Source of the DNA: Bacteroidota bacterium
GTDB lineage: Bacteria; Bacteroidota; Bacteroidia; B-17B0; Aurantibacillaceae
NCBI GenBank assembly: GCA_025363015.1
Contig: JANYEQ010000050.1
Location: 1-37,971 of the forward strand
Direction of reading: 5' to 3'
DNA: 37,971 nucleotides
The notes under the pieces are model-generated. The model did no database searches. It was not told the DNA's origin and saw nothing but the letters and a program-made list of their open reading frames with translations. This document shows positions 5,672 to 25,875 of the stretch, in pieces (the first letter of the stretch is position 1; every line of letters starts with the position of its first letter). Position numbers and translations under genes: made by a program.

Positions 5672-6748
5672 CATCAGCGGAAAGAACGTTGCATGGCAGG
5701 AACAAAAGAGGCTTTGATGCGGGGAGTTTGGTGCGCGCACAAACCAATAGGCTACGATAAAATTGTAATCAATGGCGAAACAAAATTGGTTGTCAATAAT
5801 GAAGGCAAACTTTTACGAAAGGCTTTTTACTGGAAGGTAAATGAAAACCTGAATAGCGAACAATGCGTTGCACGGCTTGCGAATATGGGCTTAAAAGTAT
5901 CCCACCAAAAAATGTCAACCATTTTCAGAAATCCTTTTTATTGCGGAATGATTTCTCACAATCTTTTGGAAGGCAAGTTGGTTGAAGGGAAACATGAGAA
6001 GCTGATTTCAAAGGAAATATTTTTGAAAGTAAATGAAATCCAAAACAAGAATTCATTTGGCTACAAACAAACACCCGAACAAATTAATATTCCTTTAAAG
6101 GTTTTTGTAAAATGCGCTAAATGTGGAACCGGATTAACCGGCTACGTTGTAAAACGTAAAAACCTTTGGTATTACAAATGCAGGAGTAAAGGTTGTTGCG
6201 TAAATAAATCTTCCGAAGCGTTAAACGGTTTATTTGAAAACGTTTTGACGGATTTTACTCTCGATATGCAGAACGCCGACCTGATGGTAGAACTGCTGAA
6301 AACGGAGTTTGATGACCGAAGCAGGGATAATGCGGAGACCGTTATGTTGCTTAAAGAGCAGTATCAGGAAATAAACCGCAAATTAGAGCGTTTGGAGGAG
6401 CGTTTTATGAGCGAGGAAATCACTAAGGAACTGTATTTAAAATACGCTGAAAAACATAAGGAGGAACAAGTGAAAATTCAACGGGATTTGCAACAGTTCG
6501 AACTAGGGACTTCGAACTCGGAAGATTGCGCTAGATTAATTGTCGGGTACGCCCAAGACCTTCGTAAAACGTGGCTTTCCGGCGATTATGTAGATCGTCA
6601 AAAACTTCAAAATTACCTGTTTCCGAAGGGGATTCCGTATTGTAAAGATTCAGGGCTTGTTCGAACCGAGGATTTCAATTCGGTGTTTCTTTGGATCACC
6701 CGTAAACAGGGAGATTTGGGGCAAAAAAATGCGGCATCCCAAGTTTGA
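5672..6748 (+). pseudogene. Large serine recombinase, N-terminal catalytic domain lost
   Basis: The readable frame from the ATG at 5693 gives 351 residues matching the second half of a large serine recombinase: recombinase domain (residues 5-120), zinc ribbon with CAKC then a C-x5-CC group (residues 139-166), long coiled coil (210-265) and C-terminal tail. Homology starts upstream of the ATG, since in-frame codons from 5672 read HQRKERC before MAGTKEAL, as in complete enzymes. An in-frame stop lies just before that. The whole resolvase domain with the catalytic Ser is absent, so the protein cannot recombine DNA. It aligns with residues about 175-530 of the intact enzyme at 24228. Codon use is richer in G and C than its neighbours, a sign of transfer. 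Best read as the remnant of an excised or rearranged element. Confidence 0.85.
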
Positions 6749-7282: not shown

Positions 7283-7954
7283 CTATGGTTGTATACTAAA
7301 ACAATAACCTATACTATGAATTGTTTGAATATAATCAGCGCACCCTTTTTTTAATAATTTTTTACGAAGATTTTTTACGTGTGTATAAATAAAGTTGTAG
7401 TTATCAAACTGAATAGTACGTTCTTCTCCTAAAAAATGTTTAGCTATCTGACTTTTAGAGAGTATATTGTTTTTATTATTAACAAAATATAAAAGTAACT
7501 CATACTCTTTTGTAGTTAAAAACACTTCCTGGTCATTTACTTTAACGTTACGATTTTCAACATTTATTAATATTTCGTTTATAGTTATAGTTTTATTAGA
7601 CTCTAAGTTTCGTCTTCGTATTATAGCCTTTATTCGAGCTTTCAGTTCGTCTAAATGAATCGGTTTTAGTAAATAATCGTCTGCTCCTGCATCTAATCCT
7701 TTAATTTTATTGCTTAATGAATTCTCTTCTGAAATTATAATTATTCCTATTTTGGGAAACTTTTCATTTATTTGCTCTATTCCACTCAACCAATTTGAAG
7801 ATTGCACCTCTACTATTACACAATCGTATTCGCTATTAGAAATTTTTTCAAAAGCATCCAAAAAATTATTTACAGATATGACTTTATAACCCTCACTACT
7901 CAGAAAGAACTGTATTGATTTATTAAATTCTTCTTCTATTAGTAATATATTCAT
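7283..7954 (-). CDS. OmpR/PhoB-family response regulator with Glu at the phosphorylation site
   Basis: 223 residues: receiver domain (1-120) and C-terminal winged helix (about 125-220; FLTTKEYELLLYFVNN and YTHVKNLRKKL are typical of trans_reg_C). The acidic pocket (E7-E9), switch Ser75 and Lys97 (LLKP) are present. The position that normally holds the phospho-acceptor Asp is Glu49 (CVIVEVQS instead of the usual LLLD-type strand), and the following Pro-Gly is lost. Glu at this site can mimic phosphorylation, so the protein may be always active or respond without a kinase. No histidine kinase gene is nearby. PhoB-type winged helices bind direct repeats at 11-bp spacing, which is the spacing in several promoters further along this block. 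Family assignment is firm; its targets are inference. Confidence 0.9.
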   Translation of the reverse strand: MNILLIEEEFNKSIQFFLSSEGYKVISVNNFLDAFEKISNSEYDCVIVEVQSSNWLSGIEQINEKFPKIGIIIISEENSLSNKIKGLDAGADDYLLKPIHLDELKARIKAIIRRRNLESNKTITINEILINVENRNVKVNDQEVFLTTKEYELLLYFVNNKNNILSKSQIAKHFLGEERTIQFDNYNFIYTHVKNLRKKLLKKGCADYIQTIHSIGYCFSIQP

Positions 7955-7963
7955 AAAAAAATT

Positions 7964-8013
7964 AAAAAAGTGTATGACTTACATGAAAAAGATATGAATA
8001 AACACACTTTTTT
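7964..8013 (-). terminator. A/T-rich hairpin between PepSY-like gene and response regulator
   Basis: AAAAAAGTGT at 7964-7973 pairs with ACACTTTTTT at 8004-8013 around a 30-base loop. Read leftwards it lies just after the PepSY-like gene and ends in a T-run, so it may end that transcript or act in the leader of the response regulator. The stem is weak in G/C. Confidence 0.35.
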
Positions 8014-8027
8014 TTTATTATATATAA

Positions 8028-8483
8028 TTAATCCTTGGCGGTTGTAGGTTCCGATTTTTTTGCAAAATTTCCTTTGTCATCAAAAACCGCATCAAAATGT
8101 TCTTTTCCTTTTGTCATTTCTGCTTCATACATTACCTTTCCGGTTCCGTCCGTAATTTTAGCGGCTTCTGAAATTTTATACCCAGTAAAGTTCTTTATAC
8201 AATAATTAGATGCAATTTTCGGAAGTTCACTTATCTTAATTTCTTGCTCTAATTCTTTAAATGTACCATCGGCACTAAAAACAGCCGATGACTCGACCTT
8301 GTTTAAATCAAATTCTGCTTCATAATCTACACCTTCTTTTTCCCATACTTTTACTTTTGATGTAGCGTATTTTATAGCAAAACTGGCCTTTACATTGGCA
8401 GGAACTTCTGCTTCTTTTAAATGTTGAGCTGTGGCTGTATTTATTACTAATAAACACCCTGCCATTAAAATGATTTGTTTCAT
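8028..8483 (-). CDS. Periplasmic PepSY-like (DUF2874) domain protein
   Basis: 151 residues with a signal peptide ending near TATAQ (residue 20). Two repeats of the PepSY-like pattern are seen: VPANVKASFAIKYATSKVKVWEKEG with DYEAEFDLN, then KIASNYCIKNFTGYKISEA with MYEAEMTKG. Paired repeats of this type form cystatin-like folds in small exported Bacteroidota proteins. Family members are often induced with envelope two-component systems, and here the gene sits directly upstream of a response regulator on the same strand. No enzyme motif is present. Function beyond an exported binding or stress role cannot be given. Confidence 0.8.
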   Translation of the reverse strand: MKQIILMAGCLLVINTATAQHLKEAEVPANVKASFAIKYATSKVKVWEKEGVDYEAEFDLNKVESSAVFSADGTFKELEQEIKISELPKIASNYCIKNFTGYKISEAAKITDGTGKVMYEAEMTKGKEHFDAVFDDKGNFAKKSEPTTAKD

Positions 8484-8573
8484 GTTTTATTTGATTATTA
8501 ATTTATACTTCGAAAGTACAATTCGATTCTAAAGAGATTTTGAAGTAAAATTTGAATAGTATTTTTTCGTTTT

Positions 8574-9101
8574 TTATTCAGGATAAACAAACACCAAAGA
8601 ATCAGAAACAACAGCCGAACCAAACACACCAATACAACCCTCAATTTTAGTTTTTAAAAATACTGGCTCTACAAATGGATTTAATTGGGCTAATTTTTGC
8701 TTATCAATATTATCATAAAAATCTGCTGTGTTTTTATCTAACGATTGCACATAAACATAAGCCGTATCATCTTTTTTATGTTTAAATGCAGGTTCAACAA
8801 CAAATTGAATAGCTTGTCCATCCAATCCTTTATCAAAATATATAGAGCGACCAAATTCACTAATTTTAAAAAATGCGCCGTTGGTGCAGGCACTGTGAAC
8901 TAATCCTAAGTTCGAAGCACCATAAACCGAACTATCAATTGTTCTATTCATTTGAAAGCGATAAAAGTTTTCGCTTCCGCCAATATCATTAAAATTAATA
9001 ATTACGCCTTCATGGTCGCCATACATATCGTGAAACTAATGTACAAACGGAATTGATGTGATACTTACTTTGGGTGAAAAATATATTTTATTCGTTTTCA
9101 T
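8574..9101 (-). pseudogene. DUF4249-type protein, C-terminal remnant with in-frame stop
   Basis: The open part (ATG at 9026) gives 150 residues with the DUF4249 C-terminal pattern: VIINFNDIGGSENFYRFQM in the first third and GCIGVFGSAVVSDSLVFVYPE at the end. The same frame continues upstream to about 9101 (KVSITSIPFVH), but a TAG at 9038-9036 cuts it; a TGG to TAG change would explain this. The normal N-terminus with its lipoprotein signal (about 250 residues) is missing. DUF4249 genes usually follow a TonB receptor gene, and this one lies downstream of the receptor at 9255-12158. So the pair was probably once an intact uptake unit whose second member has decayed. Confidence 0.65.
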
Positions 9102-9254: not shown

Positions 9255-12158
9255 TTAAAAAGGAGTGAAGATAATTTGAAAATAATAAGTAGGTTTAAAA
9301 GCGGATATTTGCCATATTAATAAATCGTCGTTTTTATCATATTTACCATTCGCTTTTTTGTCCATATAATAAGTTTGATTTTGCGCTAAAATATCTTTTA
9401 CAGAAAATTTAAATTCTAATTTATTTTTAAAAAATGATTTTGTAACTTGAGCATCTATAACCGTTCGCCCGTTTTCCCATATAGTAGGTTCAAGTATATT
9501 ACCCACCAAATATATTTTTTGTCCACTACGATTAGCAAAACAACTTAAACTATATCCTAATTTTTTATCAAAAAAAGTTAACCCACTATTAATTATATAG
9601 GGTGACTGCCCTTGTAATGGTCTATAGGTAATATCGTTTCCGCTGTTGCTTACAACTTGAGTTGAAGAACGAATATACGAGTAGTTTGAAGTAAATAAAA
9701 AATGGCTAAAAAATTTTGAAATTTTACTAGTATCCTTTTTAAAAAATGTGCCAAGCATTAATTTATATTCAGCTTCAATACCATAACAATTTGCATGCGA
9801 GGTATTGTTGTAAGATATTTCATCATCGCCTAAGGTTAAGCTCTGCTCGATAGGATTTATAAGACTTTTGTAAAATCCCGAAACTGATACTAGTTGTCCA
9901 ACGCCAGCATAAATTTCGTATCTGATATCATAGTTTTTTATTACTGCCCTTTGTAAATGTGGATTTCCAGCAATGTGTCTTTCGGTATAAATATCATAAA
10001 ATCGAAATGGTGCTAATTCTCTATACTCTGGCCGATTTAGCGTTTTAGAATAGCTTAATCTTATATTTTGATTTTTGAACGGTGAAAAAATTAAATTAAT
10101 TGATGGTAAAACATCCATTACGGTTGTATCAACAGTATGAACAGTTTGATTATAAAAAAAACGAAAATCTCTGTATTCCAACATTTGATTGTACTTTTCA
10201 ACCCTAACACCTGTAACTATTTTTAGCCAATCATTACATTTAAGGTCTATCATACTATATGCTGCTTTAAGATAGGATGAAGCTGTATAAGTATCAACAG
10301 GATTTGTAAAATCTATTAATTTAAAGCCCCCAGTTCCATTTGCTAAAAGCCCCATATTTTGTTGCGAAAATATTTGACTTTGATTGAGGTACGATAAACT
10401 ATCATTAAAATAAAAATTACCAACAACTTGGTATTTGTTATAAGCTAATTGCCTTGTATCAAACGTTCGAGCTCTTTTTTGTAACATTGTTCCAATCTTA
10501 ATGTCCACGCTTAATGATTTATATAGTTTAATTGATTTTAAAATATCGAGCTTAGCACTTTTCGAGGTTTCATACAAATTAGACCAATATCGTCCACCTG
10601 CTTTATCAGGATTATAGCCCGAAGCCATAATGTTAGCTTGCCATACAGTATCTTTTGGGTTTGGATATGAGGGATTACTAATCTCAGTAAATTTAGAATA
10701 AGACATACGTCTCAAATTTGGAACTTCTCTTTGCAATGTATTATATGCTGCCAACCAATTTACCGTTAATTTTATTTTTTCAAAGTAATGATCTCCATTT
10801 AATTGTGAGGTTTTTATTTTATTAGAGGTAAACCAAAACACATCATATTTATTTATAATTGGATTGGCTACAAAAGCTTCGTGACCACCAGTTCCATGAA
10901 TTACCTTGTCATCAGAGTTAATGCAATATAGATTTTTAAGGCTAATGATGTGATTTTTTGTGATTTTACAACTTAAATTTAACAAAGCACTTGTAAGTAT
11001 TTGCGATGAAAATGTCTCATCAATTCGATTTTCGGCAAGCACTAATGGGCTTTGCTGTTGGAAATTATAAGTGTCGTATGTTTTAGTAGACCTTTTAAAA
11101 TAATTGTTTGTTTTGTTATATGAAACAGAGGCAGTTGCACCAAAAAAATCTCGCCCTTTAATTACAAATTTGTGTCCCGCACTTACTTGAAAATTATAAT
11201 TAGATGAAAACTTTTTTGTGTATATTGACCAATCACTAGCAGGAATTGTTTGTGATAAAATACCCTGTTCTTTTAGTGTTATCGGATAATTTCCTATACT
11301 AGGCAATTCATTAGGTATTGCCCTTGTACCATCGTCTGTGCCTAACCAATCTTTTTTTCCACCTTTGTAATACAATTGATTTTTACCAGTAGTATTAGAA
11401 CTATATGCACCCAATGTAGAAACAGATATAAAATTTTTTTCAGGAATACCTTTTGTATTTATCTCAATAATACCTCCTGCGAAATCGGCAGGTAGGTCGG
11501 GGCGAGCTGTTTTGGTAACAATTATATTATCTATCATACTTGTTGGAATTATATCAAATGAAAATGCCTTTCTATCAGATTCCGTGCTAGGTAGGGGTGC
11601 TCCATTTAAATAATTGGAATTATATCGGTCATTCAACCCTCTTATAACAATATACTTATCATCTTCAATACTTACACCATTAATTCGCTTTACAATTTGC
11701 CCCGTATTTAAATCAGGGGTTCGTTTTATGGTCTCGGCAGATACGCCGTCGCTAACGCTCAAATTGTTTTTTTGTAACAATACAATTGCAACATTATTAT
11801 TTTTTGCAAGTTCTGCTGAAACAATAACTTCATTAAGATTTTTTAAATCATTGTCGAGCTTTATATCAACATTCAAGGAATCATTATTTAAAACTTTTAT
11901 TTTTAAGGTTTCTATTTTGTAAGAAATATAATTTGCAACAATATAAACCTCACCAACGGGAACATCTTTAATAATAAATTTACCTTCAAAATTAGAAATT
12001 GAAACACACTTAGTGTTTTTGACAAAAACAGTAACACCAGTTAATAATTCGCCTGTTTGTTTGTCTTTAATCGTACCAGAAATTATCCCTGTTTGAGAAA
12101 ATATTAAAATAGGTATAACAGTAAAAATTAAAAAAAAATATTTCATATAAAATATCAA
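9255..12158 (-). CDS. TonB-dependent outer-membrane receptor
   Basis: 967 residues. The signal peptide ends near IFSQ; M5 (MKYFFLIF) is an equally good start. Residues about 25-105 form a carboxypeptidase-like regulatory domain (GIISGTIKDKQTGELLTGVTVFV). The plug domain follows (TPDLNTGQIVKRINGVSIEDDKYI, VIRGLNDRYNSNYLNGAPLP, IIVTKTARPDLPADFAGGIIEI), then a 22-strand-type barrel with a terminal aromatic residue (TYYFQIIFTPF). It should import a large or scarce ligand across the outer membrane using TonB energy; the substrate cannot be inferred. The partner DUF4249 gene downstream is broken. Its promoter carries the 11-bp direct-repeat operator at 12295-12325. Confidence 0.92.
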   Translation of the reverse strand: MIFYMKYFFLIFTVIPILIFSQTGIISGTIKDKQTGELLTGVTVFVKNTKCVSISNFEGKFIIKDVPVGEVYIVANYISYKIETLKIKVLNNDSLNVDIKLDNDLKNLNEVIVSAELAKNNNVAIVLLQKNNLSVSDGVSAETIKRTPDLNTGQIVKRINGVSIEDDKYIVIRGLNDRYNSNYLNGAPLPSTESDRKAFSFDIIPTSMIDNIIVTKTARPDLPADFAGGIIEINTKGIPEKNFISVSTLGAYSSNTTGKNQLYYKGGKKDWLGTDDGTRAIPNELPSIGNYPITLKEQGILSQTIPASDWSIYTKKFSSNYNFQVSAGHKFVIKGRDFFGATASVSYNKTNNYFKRSTKTYDTYNFQQQSPLVLAENRIDETFSSQILTSALLNLSCKITKNHIISLKNLYCINSDDKVIHGTGGHEAFVANPIINKYDVFWFTSNKIKTSQLNGDHYFEKIKLTVNWLAAYNTLQREVPNLRRMSYSKFTEISNPSYPNPKDTVWQANIMASGYNPDKAGGRYWSNLYETSKSAKLDILKSIKLYKSLSVDIKIGTMLQKRARTFDTRQLAYNKYQVVGNFYFNDSLSYLNQSQIFSQQNMGLLANGTGGFKLIDFTNPVDTYTASSYLKAAYSMIDLKCNDWLKIVTGVRVEKYNQMLEYRDFRFFYNQTVHTVDTTVMDVLPSINLIFSPFKNQNIRLSYSKTLNRPEYRELAPFRFYDIYTERHIAGNPHLQRAVIKNYDIRYEIYAGVGQLVSVSGFYKSLINPIEQSLTLGDDEISYNNTSHANCYGIEAEYKLMLGTFFKKDTSKISKFFSHFLFTSNYSYIRSSTQVVSNSGNDITYRPLQGQSPYIINSGLTFFDKKLGYSLSCFANRSGQKIYLVGNILEPTIWENGRTVIDAQVTKSFFKNKLEFKFSVKDILAQNQTYYMDKKANGKYDKNDDLLIWQISAFKPTYYFQIIFTPF

Positions 12159-12239: not shown

Positions 12240-12325
12240 CAAAAATATAATACTACACGAAGAAAATTATTAAGGCTGTGTTACCAAATTATTACTACAA
12301 AATGGACACAGAATTGCTACAGAAT
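12240..12325 (-). promoter_or_regulatory. Promoter with three 11-bp-spaced direct repeats, TonB receptor gene
   Basis: A -7 box TATTTTTG lies at 12247-12240 (minus). Three 9-bp repeats written on the plus strand follow at exact 11-bp steps: CTACAAAAT at 12295, ACACAGAAT at 12306, CTACAGAAT at 12317. The first repeat begins 55 bp from the start of the box. The same arrangement occurs at 17681-17767 and 21649-21734. No clear -33 TTG is present, which suits a promoter that needs an activator. The operator reading is inferred from spacing and recurrence. Confidence 0.6.
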
Positions 12326-12346
12326 ATTTAAAAAATGTGTAGTTTT

Positions 12347-15300
12347 TTATTTTATTATACTCACATGCCCTACGTAGCTGTGTTCTTTATGGTAAATATC
12401 TTTTAAATATACTTTCCAAATATACGTATCGTCTTGTACCTTATCGCCACCACGTCCTTTAAATGTACCATCCCAACCTTCGAAGGGGTTGTTGGTACTA
12501 AATATTTGTGCACCCCATCTATCAAAAATTTGCATTTTAAAGGTATTGCTATCCCAGCCCATTCCCTTTGGTAAAAAGGTGTTATTTAAATTATCGTCAT
12601 TGGGTGTAAAACAATTAGGGGCATAAAATGTAAACTCAGAGTTTATTTTAATAATTTTAATAGCGGTATCGGCACAGCCCATACTGTTAGAAGCTACCAA
12701 CATAACAGGATACAAGCCTATATCGCCAAAAGTGGCAGTTACGTTATTGCCATATACTGGCGTGTTGTTAGATAAATACCAAGTAACAGTACTATAATTA
12801 GTAGAAGCATTTGTAAATAAAAAAGTAGAATTATACTCGGTACTTTCAAAACCAATGTTTGATGTAAAATCGGCTTGCGGTTTTGTTAGGGCAGTAATGC
12901 CAGTAATATCTGCTAATTTATAAGCACAACCATTGGTGGTAATAACATTTAATACACCACTATAAGTACCTGCACTTGTAAAACAAATTATAGGGCTGTT
13001 GGAGTTGCTAATTGTACCGTTACTAAAATTCCACTCCCAATTCATAATTACTCCTGTTTTTATTAAAACACTATCACTAAAGTTTACGCATAAAGGGGTA
13101 CAGCCCGTTACAGTATTAAACGGTTTAATGGCGGGTTTTGGAGTAACTGTTACACTAATTGTTTTTATGACTGAACTACAACCATCGTTTACACTTACCG
13201 AGTATAATTGATTGTTAGATGCTGTAAACGTTATACTACTTGTATTGGCATTGCTCGGTGTCCAATTATATTGATAATTTCCACTTCCACCAAAGGCACT
13301 AGCCGTTAAAGTAGTTAGCGCACTGTTACAAACGTTTACATTACTATTTACCGTTAGCGATACTGACGCAGCTACCGACACAGTAATAATAGCAGGCAAG
13401 CTAGCGCAACCATTATTGTCGGTAGCTATTACCGAATAAGTGGTTGTAATAGTTGGCGTAACTGTAACATTAGTACCATAACTATTTATAGGTTGCCAAT
13501 TTATAGTATAAGCAGGTGTACCACCATTAATGTTGGCAGATAGTACTGCCGATTGACCTTTACAAATATTTTGATTGTTTAACGGACTTACGTTTAATAT
13601 AGCTGGCTGAGAAATAGTTGCAAAAGTAGTTTTTGTACAACCATTGGCATCGGTTACAATTACTGTATATACGCCAGCACCCAAGCCCGTAACATTAGAA
13701 TTTGTTGACGCACTTGGTTGCCAATTGTAGGTAAAACCACCTGCACCACCACTTGCTGTTACTGATACAGAGCCAGTAGTTTGCCCATTGCACATAACAT
13801 TATTTGAAATAGCATTTGTAGTTATTGCGGTTGGCTGACCAATTATAAACGCAGTAATTTTAGTGCAACCTTTGCTATCAGTAACAACAGCACTATAATT
13901 TCCAGTAGATAAATTAATGGCACTTGTACTATTTCCGCCACTTGGCAACCAATTATAAGTATATCCTCCATTGCTACCACTTGCAATAACCGTACTCGAA
14001 CCATTGTTTGCGCCGTTACAAGTAATATTAGTTACCATTACCGAAGCCGTTAACATTGAAGGTTGTGTAATATTTACAGTAGATGTAGCTGTGCAATTTT
14101 TTGTATCGGTTACGGTTACGCTATATACATTAGTAGAAAGTGTATTGGCAGATGACCCAGTGCCACCGCTTGGCAACCAATTATATGTATATCCTGCCGT
14201 GCCACCACTTGCGTTTACCGATGCCAAGCCGTTAGCTAAACCATTACATGTTATGTTAGTTGAGGATACAACTGCTGTTACAGGGGCTAAGGGCTGAGTA
14301 ATAACAATAGCTGCAGAGCCAACGCAACCGCTGGCATCGGTAGCTATTATATTATAATTGCCCGCCACCAAGCCCGAAGCTGTTATAGCCGTTCCACCTG
14401 TTGGAGACCAACTATAAGTATAAGGTGATATACCTCCTACGGCATTTGCAGTAGCAATGCCAGTAGCACCGCCAAAGCAAGCTACGTTAGTACTTGTAAG
14501 CGTAATAGTTGGCCCACCACTTGATGAAATAGTTGTTGTAATAAAATTTGCACATGCGTGGCTATCTGTTACTGTTACCGAATAAGCCCCTGCCGCTAAA
14601 GCTGTTGCAACGCTTGATGTTCCTGCACCAGAAGTCCAACTATAAGTATAGTTTGGTGTACCGCCTGTTGCGGTTACGGTTGCCGAACCCACAGCGCTAC
14701 CACAAGTAGTGTTATTTGAATTAATACTTAGATTTAAAACAGGAGGTTGCGTAATAGTTACAGTTGATGTTTTTTTACAACCCACAGCATCTGTTACTGT
14801 TACCGAAAAAATCCCTGCCGTTAAAGCAGTACCTGTAGCCCCTGTGCCCCCAGTAGGCAACCAAGCATAAGTGTATGGCGCAGTACCATTAGTTGGCGTA
14901 ACTGCAGCACTACCGTTGTTTCCGCCAAAACACGTAACATTAGTTGAAGCGGTAATAGCACTATTCATAATAAGTATTGTATGAGTTATAACACCTGGAG
15001 GGTTACAAGGACCACCTGTTTGCGTTAAGCTTATAGTATAAATGCCCGGTGTGGTATAGGTGTGCGAAGGATTTGAAGTTGCCGATGTATTAGCAGCACC
15101 CGAAGCAGGGTCGCCAAAATTCCAAGCTAAAGTTGTGGTTGTAGGATTAGGGCAAGAAGGTAATATACTTGTAAGATTTATTTGCCCTGCTGCAGCACCG
15201 CAAGCCGTAGAAAAGTTAGGCGCATTTGCCATTCCGTCCGAAATTAAAATATCGTCAAAAGCTAAACCATCATAGTAGTTACATACAAAACCTGCTCCAA

Positions 15301-15964
15301 AGGTAAATCGAAACTTTACATTAGGTTGGCCAGCTAAACCTGTTAAACAATGCTTTGCAACTACCCATCCGTTTGAACCTGATCCTAAAAAGCAAGTAGC
15401 TGTTCCGCTTGGCACTGTTCCAAATGCATAATGATTTCCACCCCAACCTGTAGTAGCAGGATCTAAGGTAACTAATTTAGAAATATTATTTGTGTTGTAC
15501 CAATTTGCATTCATACAATCAATAGGGTCACCTAAATTACCTACTCTTATCCATGTAGTTCCTCCATTTAAAGAGTATTGTAGATTACCACCATCCCATT
15601 TTCGTTCAGTTTCCCAAAAAAGTTTAAACGAAATCCAAGGGTAAGATAAAGATGAAAAATTAAACACGGGACTTGTAACGTAAGATACCTCATTATTGTT
15701 ATACCCTACACCTGATAAGGTTAATCCTCCATTAATCCAACATTTTGCGCCACCACCCGCGGCTGTAATAGTGGGTTTTGAGGGAGTGCCCCATACCCAA
15801 TCGCTAAATGTACCGCCAGCAGCCCAACCACCGTTTGTGGTTTCAAAATCTTGAAAGTAAGGAAAGGTTGAAATTTGTGCATTTATATTAATTGTAAAAA
15901 TGCATGCTAACACTACAATTATTTTAGTAATGTTTGCTTTGCAAAATGTAGTTAGTGTTTCCAT
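12347..15964 (-). CDS. Giant T9SS-exported SprB-repeat/PKD protein with gliding-motility C-terminal domain
   Basis: 1205 residues with a signal peptide ending near ININAQ (residue 30). Residues about 30-245 form a jelly-roll-like domain (FPYFQDFETTNGGW start). A PKD domain follows (LAWNFGDPASGA ... HTYTTPGIYTISLTQT). Six SprB-type repeats come next, each about 75 residues, with the pattern TCNGxxNGxAxVxAxGGxxxYTYNWLPSGG and ending SVTVTD..GC. Two Ig-like repeats and two PKD-like domains lead to the gliding-motility-associated (type B sorting) C-terminal domain: FYAPNCFTPNDDNLNNTF, MQIFDRWGAQIFST, NPFEGWDGTFKG. The type B domain needs PorP/SprF-type help for export. SprB-like proteins act as surface adhesins. 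Its promoter has two copies of the 11-bp-spaced motif (16161-16180). Confidence 0.92.
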   Translation of the reverse strand: METLTTFCKANITKIIVVLACIFTININAQISTFPYFQDFETTNGGWAAGGTFSDWVWGTPSKPTITAAGGGAKCWINGGLTLSGVGYNNNEVSYVTSPVFNFSSLSYPWISFKLFWETERKWDGGNLQYSLNGGTTWIRVGNLGDPIDCMNANWYNTNNISKLVTLDPATTGWGGNHYAFGTVPSGTATCFLGSGSNGWVVAKHCLTGLAGQPNVKFRFTFGAGFVCNYYDGLAFDDILISDGMANAPNFSTACGAAAGQINLTSILPSCPNPTTTTLAWNFGDPASGAANTSATSNPSHTYTTPGIYTISLTQTGGPCNPPGVITHTILIMNSAITASTNVTCFGGNNGSAAVTPTNGTAPYTYAWLPTGGTGATGTALTAGIFSVTVTDAVGCKKTSTVTITQPPVLNLSINSNNTTCGSAVGSATVTATGGTPNYTYSWTSGAGTSSVATALAAGAYSVTVTDSHACANFITTTISSSGGPTITLTSTNVACFGGATGIATANAVGGISPYTYSWSPTGGTAITASGLVAGNYNIIATDASGCVGSAAIVITQPLAPVTAVVSSTNITCNGLANGLASVNASGGTAGYTYNWLPSGGTGSSANTLSTNVYSVTVTDTKNCTATSTVNITQPSMLTASVMVTNITCNGANNGSSTVIASGSNGGYTYNWLPSGGNSTSAINLSTGNYSAVVTDSKGCTKITAFIIGQPTAITTNAISNNVMCNGQTTGSVSVTASGGAGGFTYNWQPSASTNSNVTGLGAGVYTVIVTDANGCTKTTFATISQPAILNVSPLNNQNICKGQSAVLSANINGGTPAYTINWQPINSYGTNVTVTPTITTTYSVIATDNNGCASLPAIITVSVAASVSLTVNSNVNVCNSALTTLTASAFGGSGNYQYNWTPSNANTSSITFTASNNQLYSVSVNDGCSSVIKTISVTVTPKPAIKPFNTVTGCTPLCVNFSDSVLIKTGVIMNWEWNFSNGTISNSNSPIICFTSAGTYSGVLNVITTNGCAYKLADITGITALTKPQADFTSNIGFESTEYNSTFLFTNASTNYSTVTWYLSNNTPVYGNNVTATFGDIGLYPVMLVASNSMGCADTAIKIIKINSEFTFYAPNCFTPNDDNLNNTFLPKGMGWDSNTFKMQIFDRWGAQIFSTNNPFEGWDGTFKGRGGDKVQDDTYIWKVYLKDIYHKEHSYVGHVSIIK

Positions 15965-16747
15965 CTTTAAAAATTTTTAAATATTTTTAAAGTGGTTAAA
16001 GAGTTATTATTTTAATTAAAATTTAAAATAATTCTTTTAGGATGTTCACTTTTTTATAGGTTACGAAAATACATTGTATTAATAATAAAATCAATATAAT
16101 TGTGTTAAGGCTTTATTAATAAATACGGCATATTTAACGGTTTTATTAACATTTTATTTACTACAGAATTGCTACAAAATTTAATTTAAACTACTAAGTG
16201 TTTAGTTTACTCATTTAAAAAACAGTTTCGCTCATTTACATTCTAAAGAAGTTGATTTTATAATTTTTTATAAAAAAAATAAGCTGTTAATGTTAAATTA
16301 TTTGAATGGAAAATAATAATGTTGGGTGGTTAAACAAATAATTACTAATTAGCTGAAGTATCGTAAAATTTATCATTAACCAAATTTATTAATTGAGATT
16401 TAAATACTATTTAGTAACAATAAAAAGTATCATTTTGAACCTGTTACAACTTTGAGCGATAATTAATAACTAAGTGTTAAATAATTGGCTAAATAGTATA
16501 TATAATTAAAAATAACTGCTTTTATAATAACTACAGTAATAAATTACAATATTACTCAAGTTACTAATAATTTTGGTTAATAAATGTGAGTTACAACTGT
16601 TATTAAAGCAACATCAATTGATAAATGTGAGTTTTAAGTGTTGTTACCATACCATCAATTAAAAAATATAAGTATTACTTAATGTTGGGATAATAACACT
16701 CAAAAATTGTTACTATCACTCATTATTACTTTAATATTATTCAAAAA
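15965..16747. promoter_or_regulatory. Long leader and upstream region of the SprB-repeat gene, with two operator repeats
   Basis: 783 bp without a gene. On the minus strand a -7-like TATTTTCG lies at 16071-16064 and a leader element (plus strand TTCTTTTAGGATGTTCACTT, 16032-16051) just after it. Both are shared with the genes starting at 17584 and 21561. Two repeats, CTACAGAAT at 16161 and CTACAAAAT at 16172, sit 11 bp apart. They begin 97 bp from the -7 box, 42 bp (four helical turns) further than in the sister promoters. At 16580-16660 an imperfect 41-bp tandem duplication is seen (ATAAATGTGAGTT at 16580 and 16621, CATCAATT at 16612 and 16653). The rest is featureless A/T-rich DNA. Confidence 0.5.
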
Positions 16748-17584
16748 TTAAAAATGTAAATCGTGTATTGGATGCATTTCCCAAGATGTATTTGCCCTTA
16801 AACCAGTTGGACCTATTGAACCAGGAGAATGGTCAATATCATAAAACAAACTACCCTTTAAAACTGTTATATGGATTGGGGTTGAGAATTTGGTGTATCC
16901 TGATTGGTTACAAAAGTCAGTTCCAAAATAACTTTTAATATAAGCGCGTAAATTATTAATAGTAGTATAAGCTGGCGAAGAAGTTGAAGATGGTAAGCCA
17001 CCACATTCGCAATTTAATAAAGTAGATGGAGTATGACTTGCATCGCCAATTATCATGTGGTAATCATTATCACTTTCTCTAGAAATAGCATATAAATATG
17101 CCGATGTAATATTTACATTTCTTTTTTCTTCTGTTATACGAGGCGAAGAACTTCCAAGACCTTTTGTGTGCATATTAGCATCTGTTTGTAAACTTAATCG
17201 TAATGCCGAAATATTGGCATACGTAACTGCTGCTGGTAAAGCATAAGATGTTTTAGCAGCTGCTCTTGCACTACCTGCAAATATATTGCTACAACCCGAT
17301 GTGATTTTATGACCTTCATTTTCTTCATTTTCTTCCTCATCAGTAGAGTTTTCGTGTGTAACCATAACATACTCATTATCATGTTTCCAAATAACGGTAT
17401 CTTTTACCATTTGCTCCAATGATGTTATTGTATCGTATTTTGCTACTTGCTGAATTGAATTTATAGATTTATTTTTTGGGCTATCTGCAATAGGCTTTTT
17501 CATACACCCATAAACTATTATACCTATAATAATACTTACTAAAAAAATGATTGAGGATTTGTTTGTAGTTTTCATTAGTTTCAA
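16748..17584 (-). CDS. Lipoprotein of unknown function with a WExHP C-terminal motif
   Basis: 278 residues. A membrane-spanning lipoprotein signal ends at the lipobox IVYGC (Cys27). A charged linker (DEEENEENEG, residues about 82-91) leads to a soluble domain from about residue 110. The C-terminal part reads PIHITVLKGSLFYDIDHSPG, then TSWEMHPIHDLHF at the very end. The combination of a Leu/Phe-Asp strand with a final W-E-x-H-P-I is found in many uncharacterised bacterial exported proteins, sometimes annotated as nuclease-like. No catalytic set can be proved here. Five Cys residues occur in the soluble part. The gene lies between the two giant secreted proteins and has the repeat-bearing promoter at 17681-17767, so it probably belongs to the same regulon. 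Confidence 0.7.
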   Translation of the reverse strand: MKLMKTTNKSSIIFLVSIIIGIIVYGCMKKPIADSPKNKSINSIQQVAKYDTITSLEQMVKDTVIWKHDNEYVMVTHENSTDEEENEENEGHKITSGCSNIFAGSARAAAKTSYALPAAVTYANISALRLSLQTDANMHTKGLGSSSPRITEEKRNVNITSAYLYAISRESDNDYHMIIGDASHTPSTLLNCECGGLPSSTSSPAYTTINNLRAYIKSYFGTDFCNQSGYTKFSTPIHITVLKGSLFYDIDHSPGSIGPTGLRANTSWEMHPIHDLHF

Positions 17585-17680
17585 AATTTTAAGATTTTAC
17601 AATTATTAATTTTGAAAGCGGTTTCGGATAATTTAATAAGAACTATTAAATTCCTGTAAGGTGTTCACTTTCTGTTATAA

Positions 17681-17767
17681 CAAATATAGTAGTTGAAAGA
17701 GGCTATGTTAAGCCCGTTCATCACATAAATTACAAAAAACAGAATTGCTACAAAATCACTACAGAAT
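17681..17767 (-). promoter_or_regulatory. Promoter with three 11-bp-spaced direct repeats, lipoprotein gene
   Basis: The -7 box TATATTTG is at 17688-17681 (minus). Repeats on the plus strand begin at 17737 (AAACAGAAT), 17748 (CTACAAAAT) and 17759 (CTACAGAAT), with a weak fourth at 17770. The first starts 56 bp from the box. The segment between box and repeats contains CCGTTCATCACATAAAT, which is also found at the same place in the promoter at 21649. A shared leader element TTCACTT lies at 17664-17670. Confidence 0.6.
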
Positions 17768-17794
17768 TACTAATACAATTGTTATGCTTCAATC

Positions 17795-20700
17795 TTAATA
17801 CTTAATTATTTTTTGAATTTCAGTTTTATTATTACAAATTATTTTTAATAAATAAATTCCGTTTTCAAAATCCATTAAGTTTAATTTTATAGTGTTAGTA
17901 ATTGTGGTTAAATTAATTAAAACCTTTCCTAATCCATCTATTAATTGAATTTTTGTTTCACTTACTTCGGCTAAACCTAAATTAATATTTAAAATACCGT
18001 AGGTTGGATTAGGATATACTTTAATTAAAGTTTGAGAATTGCCGGCAACATTATTTATTCCTGTACACACGGTTACATGTTCAATTATAGTGGCACTGCT
18101 TTTACAACCAGCTGTATTTAATCCCATTAGGGTGTAAGTAGTTGTTGAGGCAGGATTAACAATTATTGAAGATGTATTTGCTCCAGTACTCCAAGAATAG
18201 GTGGAAGCTGATCCATTTGCTGTTAGCGTGGCTGTTTGTCCAACACAAATAGTAGCACTACTGCTATTAATAAATACTATTGGCAAATTATTTACGGCCA
18301 CATAAGTAGTTATTGAATTACTACAGCCTGCGGTTGTGCCTGTTACTGTATATTGTGATGTAATGGTAGGCGTAACAATTATATTAGATGTTGTAGCTCC
18401 GTTACTCCAACTATATGTGGCGGCCCCATTTGAAATTAGTGTAGCCGTTTGCCCGGCACATATAGTGGTAGGGTTAGAAACTGTTACTATTGGACTTGGG
18501 TTTACTAATACAGTGGTTGAAGTAGTTTTACTACAACCTCCTACCGAACCTGTTACTGAATAAACTGTAGTTGAAGGTGGTGATACACTAAGTGAGCTAC
18601 CTGTTGCACCTGTATTCCAACTATAGGTTGTAGCACCCGATACGTTTAAAACTGCTGTTTGGCCATTACAAATAGTTGCCGATGTTGTTGTAACCGTTGG
18701 CATATTGCTAACCACTACTGAAGTAGTAGCCGTGTTGTTACCACATCCAGATACTGATCCCGTTACAGAATAAATAGTAGTTGAAGAAGGGGATACAGAA
18801 ATTGTATTGCCATTTGCTCCGCTGCTCCAAGTATAGGTTGTAGCTCCCGAAGCATTTAAAATAGCTGTTTGACCATTACAAATACTTGCCGATGTGGCAA
18901 CTATGGGAGTAATTGATGTAACAGTTACAGAGGTGGTAACAGTATTAACACATCCGCTGGTTGCCCCAGTAACCGTATAAATAGATGAAGAGGTAGGCGA
19001 AACGGATATGGAAGTACCAGTTCCCCCAGTACTCCAAGTATAAGTTGTAGCACCTGATACGTTTAAAACTGCTGTTTGGCCACTACATATACTTACCGAT
19101 GTTGCTGTTACAGATGGTCCTGCACTCACCACAACAGATGTGGTATTTGTTTTACTGCAATTTCCAACAGTTCCTGTAACGGTATAAATAGTAGTAGCAA
19201 TGGGCGAAACGGATACAGAAGTAGCGTTAGATCCTGTACTCCAAGTATAAGTTGTAGCACCCGATACGTTTAAAACTGCTGTTTGTCCACTACAAATAGT
19301 TGCCGATGTTGTTGTTACGGGTGGCCCTGCACCCACCACCACAGATGTGGTATTTGTTTTGCTACAGCTTCCAACAGTTCCTGTAACGGTATAAATAGTA
19401 GTGGATGCTGGTGTAATAGTTATAGAAGATATTGTAGCACCTGTGTTCCAACTATACGTTGTAGCCCCAGTAGCAGCAATAGTTGCTGTTTGACCGCTAC
19501 AAATACTAGCTGATGAAACAACAATAGTTGGCGAACTCACAATGCTTATAGTTTGTGTTAAAGGTAAACCACCGCCAGTTGTATTTGTAGGATATGCCGT
19601 TATGCTGTAAACTCCAGGTGCAGTATAAGTAAAGCTTGGATTTTGTATGGATGACGAATTGGTTGTAGCTCCTATAGCAGTCCAGTTCCATGCATTAGGG
19701 CTAAAGGTAGATAAATCGGTTACGCTAATAGGTATACCCACACAATGATTGCCACTCGAAATAGAAAAATTTGTAACTGGTGCATTAGCTGTGTATCCAT
19801 TATTATAGGTATACCAAATTGGGCTTGTCCAAATAATATCTCCATCGGGTTGAGTAATTTCTAAATAATAATAATAAGTGGTATTATTGGCTATAACATG
19901 ATTATATAGTAAAGATGCAGAGCTGGTGTTTGATGTTAAAACGGTAGGTAAAGATCCGCTTCCGGGCACACCATAATATACTTTTATAGAAGATACCGAC
20001 TCTCCGTCTTGGTCTGTTACAGTAACATTTAAAGTAGGTGTGGTAGAGTGCGTATAAATACTGCCCATTGGTTGATTGTTAATATTAAAATTAACTTTTA
20101 CATTCCAATCGTCAGAACTATACATGTGCATTTTACGAATAGCATATAACGTATTTGCTCGAGTTAAGGCAGGAGCAAGTACTACCAACCTTCCTGCGGT
20201 TTGTCTTCCAAAAACCGAGTTATGAGTGTCATGGTCTAAACCTACACCTATATGGTAACCAAGAGAAAGCGCTTCTTGATAACGGGCAACATAATCACTT
20301 GTTGAAGGGTTTGAATAGGTATTATTAGTAGAAAAAGCCGGCCCACTTCTAGCAGCCATTCCAACTATAGCATTATCGGCAGATGCGTTAACGGCGGTTA
20401 TAAATAAATTATTGTAATCGGTACTTTGAGGGTGTGCCATATAACCAAAAGCTCCTACTTTAGCATTTATTTTAGCCCATAAGCCAGCATAATTAGTTTG
20501 CCCCACAAATACATCATAATCACTAGCATCCCAGCCCATCAAGCTATCATAACCGTAAACAATAACGTGCCCCCCGCTTGAAATTGCGCCCCATTCCTGC
20601 CCATACATTGCTACAAAACTGCCATCCATATTTGCAGTATTGGCGTGTGCTAAGCCTGTATGAAAATGTAATGGAGAGTTCATACCAGCACTTAAATGGT

Positions 20701-20917
20701 TGTGATCCGAGATGCCATAAAAATCGATATGTTGAGATAGTTTGGCATAGTTAAAATCTTGCAAAGGCGTGGTTATTAAAGATGTTGCACTATCCTTATT
20801 ACCATCTGAGAATGAAGATTGGCTATGAATGTTGCCATAATAATAATTAAATGACTGTGATAGACAATTGTTCAATAAAAAAGCTGAACAAAAAAAGGCT
20901 AATGCGAATGTTTTCAT
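17795..20917 (-). CDS. PHP-like metallohydrolase domain fused to Ig-like repeats and T9SS type A domain
   Basis: 1040 residues, signal peptide to about residue 20. Residues 25-300 look like a CehA/McbA-type PHP domain. Metal-ligand motifs are seen in order: NIHSQSSFSDG, FYGISDHNHL, MYGQEWGAISSGGHVIVYG, MAHPQ, and GVGLDHDTHNS. The usual first-strand HxHS is reduced to one His followed by Ser (NIHSQSS). A PKD-like domain (about 385-465) is followed by seven Ig-like repeats of about 66 residues, each with SICSGQTAVLNVSGATTYTW-like sequence. The end is a type A sorting domain (KVYPNPTYGILNINL ... IQKIIKY). It should be surface-displayed and may hydrolyse a phosphoester or similar bond; the substrate is unknown. 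It begins 11 bp after the TPR gene, so both form an operon. Confidence 0.88.
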   Translation of the reverse strand: MKTFALAFFCSAFLLNNCLSQSFNYYYGNIHSQSSFSDGNKDSATSLITTPLQDFNYAKLSQHIDFYGISDHNHLSAGMNSPLHFHTGLAHANTANMDGSFVAMYGQEWGAISSGGHVIVYGYDSLMGWDASDYDVFVGQTNYAGLWAKINAKVGAFGYMAHPQSTDYNNLFITAVNASADNAIVGMAARSGPAFSTNNTYSNPSTSDYVARYQEALSLGYHIGVGLDHDTHNSVFGRQTAGRLVVLAPALTRANTLYAIRKMHMYSSDDWNVKVNFNINNQPMGSIYTHSTTPTLNVTVTDQDGESVSSIKVYYGVPGSGSLPTVLTSNTSSASLLYNHVIANNTTYYYYLEITQPDGDIIWTSPIWYTYNNGYTANAPVTNFSISSGNHCVGIPISVTDLSTFSPNAWNWTAIGATTNSSSIQNPSFTYTAPGVYSITAYPTNTTGGGLPLTQTISIVSSPTIVVSSASICSGQTATIAATGATTYSWNTGATISSITITPASTTIYTVTGTVGSCSKTNTTSVVVGAGPPVTTTSATICSGQTAVLNVSGATTYTWSTGSNATSVSVSPIATTIYTVTGTVGNCSKTNTTSVVVSAGPSVTATSVSICSGQTAVLNVSGATTYTWSTGGTGTSISVSPTSSSIYTVTGATSGCVNTVTTSVTVTSITPIVATSASICNGQTAILNASGATTYTWSSGANGNTISVSPSSTTIYSVTGSVSGCGNNTATTSVVVSNMPTVTTTSATICNGQTAVLNVSGATTYSWNTGATGSSLSVSPPSTTVYSVTGSVGGCSKTTSTTVLVNPSPIVTVSNPTTICAGQTATLISNGAATYSWSNGATTSNIIVTPTITSQYTVTGTTAGCSNSITTYVAVNNLPIVFINSSSATICVGQTATLTANGSASTYSWSTGANTSSIIVNPASTTTYTLMGLNTAGCKSSATIIEHVTVCTGINNVAGNSQTLIKVYPNPTYGILNINLGLAEVSETKIQLIDGLGKVLINLTTITNTIKLNLMDFENGIYLLKIICNNKTEIQKIIKY
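18130..19510 (-). repeat. About 205-bp tandem coding repeats (Ig-like units)
   Basis: Seven coding units of roughly 200-212 bp. The plus-strand string GTTGTAGCACCCGATACG recurs almost unchanged at about 18628, 19042 and 19252, with close variants near 18835 and 19455. Near-identity at DNA level in the middle units suggests recent duplication or gene conversion, so copy number may vary between strains and assemblies may collapse here. Confidence 0.75.
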
Positions 20918-20928
20918 ATTATTTACGT

Positions 20929-21561
20929 TTAATGGGTGTTACAAATAGTTTCTATTTTTTTATAGTCTTCAAAATCATCTAACTCTGTAATTTTTTTCCA
21001 GGTGTTGCAGGCTTGAATAGTATCTTTTAAATTCAAATAACAAAATCCAATTTTATAATGTGCTAATTCTAAATTCTTACGTATTGTTAAAGCTTTATTA
21101 TAATCAATAATAGCTGCACTATATTTTTTTTGCTCATAGTTTAGGTTTCCTTTTTCAAAATAGGCAATAAAGTAGGTGCTATCTATATTCAATATTTTAT
21201 TTATATCGTTTAACGCATTTTTATACTTACCTAAATACTTTTCAGATTCGGCTTTTTTAATATAAGCGTTAAAGTTTTTAGTATTAATTATTATTTCTTT
21301 TTTAAAATATGTTATTGCTTTATTGTATTTTTTTAAATTAAAATAACTCATGGCTATTAAATAATCTATATCCTTCTCTTTTGATTTATTGGCTTTTAAA
21401 AACTGTTTTATAGAAATAGTATAGTTGCCAGCATAAAAAGAATCTTTGCCTTTAGCGTAATAATTAACATCCTGACCATATAAAATAGAGGTAAACAGAT
21501 ACGTTAGCAACACAATTTTTTTTGTGATTTTTAAACTATTAAAAAATGCTATTGTCTTCAC
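20929..21561 (-). CDS. Exported TPR-repeat protein
   Basis: 210 residues. A signal peptide or N-terminal membrane segment (IVLLTYLFTSILYG, residues about 17-30) precedes four to five tetratricopeptide repeats, for example YNKAITYFKKEIIINTKNFN, YKNALNDINKILNIDSTYF and YSAAIIDYNKALTIRKNLE. TPRs bind protein partners; Bacteroidota T9SS and gliding assemblies include many such proteins. It is the first gene of a two-gene operon with the PHP/Ig-repeat protein (11 bp gap), so it may assist that protein's export or anchoring. It is driven by the repeat-bearing promoter at 21649-21734. Confidence 0.8.
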   Translation of the reverse strand: MKTIAFFNSLKITKKIVLLTYLFTSILYGQDVNYYAKGKDSFYAGNYTISIKQFLKANKSKEKDIDYLIAMSYFNLKKYNKAITYFKKEIIINTKNFNAYIKKAESEKYLGKYKNALNDINKILNIDSTYFIAYFEKGNLNYEQKKYSAAIIDYNKALTIRKNLELAHYKIGFCYLNLKDTIQACNTWKKITELDDFEDYKKIETICNTH

Positions 21562-21648
21562 TTTAAAAAAATTATATATATATATTAAAAGCGGTTAAAG
21601 AATCTTGTTTAAAACAATTCTTTTAGGATATTCACTTTATAACTATAA

Positions 21649-21734
21649 CAAACCTACTTTAAAATGGATGTGGTATCTAGTCCGTTCATCACATAAATAG
21701 AAAAAACAGAATTGCTACAGAATCACTACAGAAA
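21649..21734 (-). promoter_or_regulatory. Promoter with three 11-bp-spaced direct repeats, TPR operon
   Basis: The -7 box TAGGTTTG is at 21656-21649 (minus). Plus-strand repeats begin at 21704 (AAACAGAAT), 21715 (CTACAGAAT) and 21726 (CTACAGAAA), exactly 11 bp apart, the first 55 bp from the box. CCGTTCATCACATAAAT between box and repeats matches the promoter at 17681. A leader element reading TTCTTTTAGGATATTCACTT lies at 21618-21637 and matches the leader of the SprB-repeat gene. This is the clearest copy of the module. Confidence 0.65.

Positions 21735-24227: not shown

Positions 24228-25875
<1,648 letters not shown>

Follow-up and report, generated by a model that had tools for sequence, protein, structure and literature searches.

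The Pho box of PhoB has the 7+4 layout of 11-bp direct repeats. In the PmrA box, the half-sites CTTAAG and XTTAAT stand five bp apart (PMC3973317). For Salmonella PhoP, a direct box is active 12 nt from the -10 element and a reversed one at distances of 27, 37, and 48 nt, and natural promoters have reversed boxes at 30-58 nt (PMC3335776). In Porphyromonas gingivalis, the kinase PorY is paired with PorX, a protein of CheY-like plus PglZ architecture encoded apart from porY, for which the site ATT-N8-AAT has been proposed and whose DNA binding is disputed. Structured 5' mRNA regions without Rfam matches have been described in Flavobacterium psychrophilum (PMC9723704); these papers, as well as PMC8050853, PMC10951265, and PMC5005315, are cited here from excerpts. 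We analyzed 37,971 nt of DNA from a Bacteroidota bacterium (Aurantibacillaceae; assembly GCA_025363015.1, contig JANYEQ010000050.1), hereafter referred to as the window, which is contig C64 of a genome of 3,325,576 bases in 143 contigs (G000; G, C, and L denote genomes, contigs, and loci). The window carries arrays of 11-bp repeats that, judged from their sequence, are OmpR/PhoB-type operators with a PmrA-box-like layout, now placed at four surface-gene promoters beside a copy of a response regulator (RR) that has no kinase.

Repeat arrays at four promoters

The original prediction had described three promoters of secreted or envelope genes, each with three 11-bp direct repeats at a fixed distance from a TAnnTTTG box, as one regulon. 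These three arrays are found where it placed them, on the minus strand and with an exact 11-bp period, and the count of three was too low, as a fourth array (16179-16162) precedes a SprB-type gene. The array before the operon of a TPR protein and a type IX secretion system (T9SS) cargo protein occupies 21701..21733 and reads TTCTGTAGTGATTCTGTAGCAATTCTGT (21733-21706, minus strand), and that before the lipoprotein gene occupies 17734..17766 and reads TTCTGTAGTGATTTTGTAGCAATTCTGT (17766-17739, minus strand). The TonB receptor gene is preceded by three 11-mers, two of them weaker, at 12292..12324 (TTCTGTAGCAATTCTGTGTCCATTTTGT; 12324-12297, minus strand), and the SprB-type gene by two units at 16162..16179 (TTTTGTAGCAATTCTGTA; 16179-16162, minus strand). 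The spacer between the repeats is conserved as well, with the unit TTYTGTAGYRA in the clear copies, and the arrays consist of head-to-tail half-sites with an 11-bp period, as in an OmpR/PhoB-type operator.

The repeats are a local module of this genome. There are six exact copies of TTYTGTAGYRATTYTGT in the whole genome, every one in these four promoters and on the same strand, and two further places match it with one mismatch. Three units with at most two mismatches were matched four times genome-wide, always in the window (two of the matches are overlapping registers of the TonB-gene array); the reversed pattern had no match in the whole genome at this threshold, and 20 Markov-1 resamples of the window gave none at three mismatches or fewer. 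Across 60 genomes, the three-unit pattern was matched in three, namely its own and, with one two-mismatch match each, G014 and G020. The two-unit pattern TTYTGTAGYRATTYTGTA, at one mismatch or fewer, matched six times in its own genome and 15 times in the other 39 genomes of the genus (in 13 of them), and since the reversed control yielded 17 matches over the 40 genus genomes, the matches outside its own genome represent background. Thus, the shared promoter module is borne out, and the motif search of genome and relatives that had been suggested as a check confines the exact two-unit copies to the window, with the other genus genomes at background. Of the proposed regulon, one regulator type for the TonB receptor, lipoprotein, and T9SS proteins stands, and a genome-wide reach does not, given that all six exact copies lie in the window.

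The arrays fit the operator of a Bacteroidota RR family

A motif was derived by expectation-maximization from the 200-bp upstream regions of 32 genes (19 RR and 13 PepSY), none of them from the window; one locus (L067) comes from contig C98 of the same genome, L070 and L075 have an identical PepSY sequence, and the L084 region lies partly inside its gene. The best sites of the resulting motif (CTTcAGAATTtCTTcAGAaT) had the same orientation in 32 of 32 regions, both orientations being allowed, and stood 18-21 bp before the start codon of 14 of the 19 RR genes and 39-50 bp before that of all 13 PepSY genes. When both strands of the window were scanned, the top seven matches were the PepSY promoter and the four arrays (22.6-15.8 bits), followed by an eighth of 9.7 bits; 20 mononucleotide shuffles of the window had maxima of 8.1-15.8 bits. 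By array, the matches reached 22.6 bits before the SprB-type gene, 20.0 and 17.1 bits before the TPR operon (21704 and 21715), 16.5 and 17.7 bits before the lipoprotein gene (17737 and 17748), and 15.8 bits before the TonB receptor gene (12306). The site before the window's PepSY gene (8526..8545, minus strand; 22.6 bits, joint best in the window) has the usual direct orientation and lies 7 bp from TACTTTCG (8511-8518).

Because a motif learned without window sequence picks the PepSY promoter and the four arrays, we regard the repeats as fitting the operator of a Bacteroidota OmpR/PhoB-type RR family encoded beside a PorY-family kinase. The head-to-tail half-sites and 11-bp period support the PhoB-like 7+4 layout seen by the original prediction, whose remark that no operator with this sequence is known to have been described gives way to this family operator and its resemblance in layout to the PmrA box. 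Among the papers listed by our literature search, we noticed none that deals with this operator or with an OmpR-type PorY partner.

The exact site CTNNAGAWTNNCTNNAGAWT was matched 39 times in 18 of the 40 genus genomes (5 times for the reversed control), and 31 of the 39 matches share a contig with the RR locus, 30 of them within ~11 kb and one ~20 kb away. With one mismatch, the family pattern has seven matches in the window's genome (reversed control, 1), of which four are in the window; the other three (C19 and two on C116) were considered as regulon sites and rejected, as they look coding by eye. Beyond the genus, 55 of 80 named loci among the matches listed were scanned. Good operators, before the RR or behind RR and kinase, were found in Dyadobacter fermentans, two Pedobacter species, an Ekhidna metagenome-assembled genome (MAG), Paenimyroides aquimaris, and Phocaeicola sartorii, as well as in MAGs labelled Lishizhenia, Flavobacteriaceae, Chitinophagaceae, and KSB1. 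Weaker sites were found in Hymenobacter pini, L206, and L210, and the same scan gave no site of note in L201, L205, L207, L208, L211, and L213. RRs of other phyla mostly lacked the operator, exceptions being a 13.0-bit site before L244 and the match near L247 taken up below.

Regulators, kinases, and a candidate recognition rule

Members of this RR family in Bacteroidota are encoded next to a PorY-family histidine kinase, and PepSY-like and TonB genes often accompany the pair. A search with the window RR gave a match at E ≤ 0.001 in all 40 genus genomes and one above 160 bits in 19, its own included. In 20 fetched regions, a frame of ~390-430 aa comes after the RR and proved to be a histidine kinase wherever this was tested; a PepSY homolog is present in 13 of these regions. 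Ten of 11 kinases beside RR homologs passed the PorY-family model NF052314 (cut-off, 350 bits; 444.7 bits for L070 and 348.8 bits for L212), which is a subfamily-level model, and the kinases are called PorY-family here rather than orthologs of P. gingivalis PorY.

The candidate regulator in the window (7283..7954, minus strand) has the receiver domain (PF00072, 58 bits) and C-terminal winged helix (PF00486, 64.7 bits) of an OmpR-type RR. The kinase is missing next to it and the PepSY and DUF4249 genes are retained; no kinase gene, adjacent PorY-family or other, was found among the window's listed frames of at least 140 aa. At the phospho-acceptor, Asp is present in 18 of 18 homologs covering the site (19 aligned, one N-terminally cut) and Glu in the window RR, which we consequently class by its domains and not as a phosphorylation-controlled member. 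It also lacks the conserved LP after the phospho-acceptor and has EE instead of ED in the acid pocket, and its recognition helix (FIYTHVKNLRKKL) is retained. Assignments to PmrA (BasR; 114.7 of the 330 bits of the NCBIfam equivalog cut-off) and to PhoB (128 of 296.2 and 113.3 of 270 bits for two NCBIfam cut-offs) were rejected.

In the tree, the window RR is sister to the RR on contig C98 of the same genome (97/92) inside a 13-row clade (100/99), with a branch length of 1.04 vs. 0.088 for the C98 RR. The C98 locus (C98:2485-4439) holds the genome's sole PorY-family kinase over the cut-off beside this canonical RR, which has the Asp and a T-type recognition helix. The C98 RR's own operator (AAACAGAATTTATCCAGATT) is degenerate. 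The window RR may no longer need a kinase or may be decaying, and its open frame at 57% identity fits the former better.

With PhoB Val197 as the reference for the DNA-contact residue (aligned by eye), the key operator base is C in 4 of 40 half-sites for RRs with V at this position, in 25 of 26 for T or A, and in 4 of 4 for N or Q. This count covers 27 parsed loci of 39, of which 23 had sites; the helix pattern did not fit in the 12 left out (L198, L202-L205, L207-L211, L213, and L219), and no site exceeded the threshold in L082, L085, L201, and L206. The dropped loci with a good site (L198, L203, L204, L209, and L219) carry C at the key bases except for one T in L198. Both the window RR and the C98 RR carry T at the Val197 position and the arrays carry C at the key base, which is consistent evidence rather than independent proof, since a single change on the tree would be enough to produce the rule.

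Promoter geometry and predicted mode of action

Predicted -7 boxes lie on the minus strand at 21649..21656 (TAGGTTTG, TPR operon), 17681..17688 (TATATTTG, lipoprotein gene), and 12240..12247 (TATTTTTG, TonB receptor gene). From the first base of the array to the first base of the box, the distances are 77, 78, and 77 bp, in agreement with the 55, 56, and 55 bp of the original prediction, which had measured other ends, and the gap between three full 11-mers and the box is 44, 45, and 44 bp. In the SprB-type promoter, a putative one-mismatch box (TATTTTCG, 16064..16071, minus strand), picked by its distance to the leader RNA described below, lies 108 bp from the array start, that is, 31 bp or about three helical turns farther; in the 33-bp frame the gap is 75 bp, vs. 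44-45 bp in the other three. The four arrays are inverted relative to the family operators and stand 44-45 (one 75) bp above their TAnnTTTG-like boxes, whereas in 24 of 33 family promoters the operator is followed, after 7 or 8 bp, by a box that keeps five or more of the six fixed bases. For antisense promoters that the arrays might serve, no exact TAnnTTTG was seen by eye on the plus strand 7-8 bp beyond the operator ends; a one-mismatch box lies there 6 bp after 17767. By analogy with the reversed distal boxes of PhoP, and given that the SprB offset of 31 bp is close to three turns, activation of the four promoters is the likelier role.

With a probability of roughly 70%, we propose that the arrays are operators of the PorY-partner OmpR/PhoB-type RR family, bound by the window RR and activating four surface-gene promoters, the identity of the RR and the activation being the inferred parts. 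The kinase-less RR, with Glu in place of Asp, would bind the head-to-tail half-sites without phosphorylation and act from 44-45 bp upstream (75 bp at the SprB-type gene), in inverted orientation, on four TAnnTTTG-type promoters. The units thus activated would be the TonB receptor, the lipoprotein, the SprB-type protein, and the TPR/T9SS-cargo operon. The C98 sister RR, driven by the PorY-family kinase there, may use the same half-sites. Three of the four transcripts would start with a stem-loop leader, probably setting how stable these mRNAs of exported proteins are or how well they are translated.

Weighing the alternatives

Several observations weigh against this proposal. Activation rests on analogy, because the orientation of the arrays is reversed and their distance to the box larger than in the family promoters, and the proposed binding, expression, and start sites are all read from DNA sequence. 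At the SprB gene, the box is imperfect and stands at a deviating distance, and the lipoprotein-gene (17.6 kb) and TPR (21.6 kb) promoters look like copies of one promoter, as they have by eye more sequence in common between repeats and box. The weakest array, at 15.8 bits, equals the top of the 20 shuffle maxima; the exact CTNNAGAWTNNCTNNAGAWT site is absent from the window's genome in a whole-genome search, the window sites deviating from the family pattern by one mismatch, and the window's PepSY operator is mixed, with C in one half-site and T in the other. Among the 55 loci, the operator is weak or absent in several family members, L247, which belongs to another phylum, has a 23.2-bit match on the opposite strand at a distance of 2.1 kb, and the recognition rule needs one change on the tree. 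Finally, the long branch and the lack of the phospho-acceptor Asp suggest that the window RR may be decaying.

If it is, the C98 RR and its PorY-family kinase could be the real regulator, and the window RR a decaying copy or a competitor that occupies the sites. We consider this rather unlikely: C98 does hold the genome's single PorY-family kinase above the cut-off, beside an RR with Asp and a T-type helix, and the branch of the window RR is long, but it is the window RR to which the arrays are linked, and this RR retains an open frame and its recognition helix at 57% identity. It seems more doubtful that the same RR family uses the inverted arrays for repression, an idea prompted by an orientation and distance unlike the 7-8 bp direct layout of 24 of 33 family promoters; the arrays lie upstream of the boxes and do not overlap them, and the PhoP excerpts describe activation from reversed boxes at 27, 37, and 48 nt (PMC3335776). 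We hold it very improbable that the repeats are functionless remnants of mobile or duplicated promoter sequence. Although the lipoprotein and TPR promoters are alike beyond the repeats and serine-recombinase-like genes stand on either side of the cluster (both by eye), the SprB and TonB promoters share, as far as seen, little except the repeats with the other two, and all four arrays are picked up by a motif to which the window contributed no sequence.

Activation by the window RR is the explanation we prefer. The original prediction arrived at the correct regulator class, whereas the candidate RR in the window, the inversion of the arrays, and the leader RNA had escaped it. Since the OmpR-type partner of PorY-family kinases in several families of Bacteroidota comes with a defined operator and a candidate rule of recognition, the targets of such kinases and the DNA sites involved become testable. 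The window may also illustrate a route of circuit change, in which an unlinked, Asp-less RR copy is associated with operators at other surface genes and in another geometry.

A conserved, predicted leader RNA behind three of the four promoters

The predicted transcripts also carry a distinct and perhaps more novel element, a leader composed of AAGTGAAYAYCYTAMARGAATT, a variable stem, and AACCRCTTT. In three of the four promoters, the distance between the start of the box and the first base pair of the leader is 17-19 bp. The copies at 21585..21640, 17612..17673, and 15986..16054 (all minus strand) were input to two models, in which they score 68.3 and 60 bits, 73.3 and 64.2 bits, and 76.2 and 63.7 bits, respectively; the TonB receptor promoter had no leader model match. 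A model built on four sequences (three from the window and one from contig C121) matched 28 of the 40 genus genomes at E ≤ 1 and 19 of them at E ≤ 0.01, and a 24-sequence model with stricter filters gave matches at E ≤ 0.01 in 16 of 247 class genomes and 7 of 135 genera. One of these (L289, E = 0.0075) is probably a false match, as by eye it has no conserved core; with it set aside, the leader occurs in five families including the window's own. By the leader models, the same genome (G000) has other copies at C121:665-736, C12:9988-10041, and C60:56340-56403, and copies in other genomes are at loci L276-L288 and L291-L302, with tandem copies at three loci in two genomes (L281, L291, and L299).

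Across 50 aligned leaders, which are related and whose alignment was fitted to the structure, 94.4% of cells are paired, vs. 39.5-55.0% for slid versions of the structure, and the helices show compensatory changes (33 cells changed on both sides vs. 10.6 in shuffles). The folding energy is moderately below that of mononucleotide shuffles (mean z = -1.39; 31 of 50 below -1), and the leader is therefore marked by conserved sequence and short covarying helices rather than by a strong hairpin. A same-strand frame of at least 100 aa begins within 250 nt after 49 of the 50 leaders (21 on the mirrored side), with a hydrophobic N-terminus in 47 (mirrored side, 18), tandem copies before one gene being counted separately. 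An exact TAnnTTTG lies 15-30 bp upstream of 28 of the 50 leaders, vs. 25 of 2000 random positions. Twenty downstream proteins were tested, one of them cut by a contig end; among the 19 intact ones, 13 have a T9SS sorting domain above the cut-off, three a weaker match, and three none. A leader also stands before a family of ~850-aa proteins with ...NIPIFSTSGADADSD... after the signal peptide (G013 C4, G014 C24, G036 C69, G009 C259, and G000 C12; L195, L178, L184, L185, and L301), two of which gave no T9SS sorting domain or other NCBIfam match.

Against Rfam 15, the window gave only a tRNA at gathering scores, and six leader loci at E ≤ 5 gave three weak matches, none covering the leader; among the papers listed by our literature search, none on such a leader element was found. 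These results suggest that the leader is a conserved structured 5' RNA of several Bacteroidia families, mostly before T9SS-cargo genes and with no Rfam match. The leader (AAGUGAACACCCUAnAGGA, variable stem, UCCnnAACCGCUU) might provide a new common post-transcriptional control of exported-protein output, combined here with a PorY-partner operator captured by a phosphorylation-independent RR copy; we see the odds as about even, tempered by model counts that include input sequences and by the moderate folding signal. If real, the leader would offer a common handle on T9SS cargo expression.

Genes of the cluster and its surroundings

The genes of the cluster lie on the minus strand. The PepSY-like gene (8028..8483; PF11396) is by synteny the usual companion of the RR-kinase pair, and the 150-aa product of the DUF4249 gene (8574..9026) matches a portion of a 298-aa L086 protein with 84% identity. 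Between the PepSY and RR genes (7955-8027) is an inverted repeat (AAAAAGTGTG...CATACACTTTTTT) that looks terminator-like by eye, so that the window RR may need its own promoter; the motif scan found no family operator in this interval. The putative targets are the TonB-dependent receptor gene (9255..12158, by family search), the gene for a SprB-repeat protein with a T9SS type B sorting domain (12347..15964, by family searches), a lipoprotein-like gene (16748..17584), and the TPR protein gene (20929..21561, by family search). The lipoprotein-like gene had no family match, and no relatives were confirmed in a search of genome contigs. The TPR gene is the first of a putative operon whose second gene encodes a T9SS type A cargo protein (17795..20917), in which a CehA/McbA-like part scores under the cut-off of its model. 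By eye, translation probably starts at ATG, a few codons downstream of the TTG given at 12158 and 17584.

Serine-recombinase-like genes flank the cluster (5693-6748 and 24228-25844 (+), by eye), the former seemingly without its catalytic N-terminus, and hint that the cluster sits in a mobile or recombined region. The product of 35940-37667 (minus strand) is one that we take, by eye, to resemble a phage tail tape measure protein.

Comparison with known systems

PhoB shares the layout class of the arrays, whereas the window RR falls below both PhoB cut-offs and the cluster holds no phosphate genes. The PmrA (BasR) system is alike in its head-to-tail half-sites with an 11-bp period, to which the family operator CTTnAGAwT-n2-CTTnAGAwT is similar, and the PDB matches closer to the window RR include BasR; differences from the PmrA box as excerpted are the -AGAWT half-sites, the PorY-family kinase, the Bacteroidota -7 box, and arrays of up to three units that are here inverted and distal. 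Salmonella PhoP is likewise an OmpR/PhoB-family activator with direct boxes near the -10 element and reversed boxes at 27-58 nt in the excerpts cited (PMC3335776), but its sequence, promoter type, and place among the regulator family members are different. The F. psychrophilum elements compared here by name belong to pheA, hisG, ftsY, acsA, alaS, and rimP, which, unlike the genes behind the leader, do not encode secreted proteins (PMC9723704); the full set reported there may overlap with the leader. The PorX/PorY system of P. gingivalis resembles the present one in that the kinases of the RR family match the NCBIfam PorY-family model and T9SS cargo is among the putatively controlled genes. It differs in the partner, which here would be a linked OmpR-type RR with 11-bp direct repeats.

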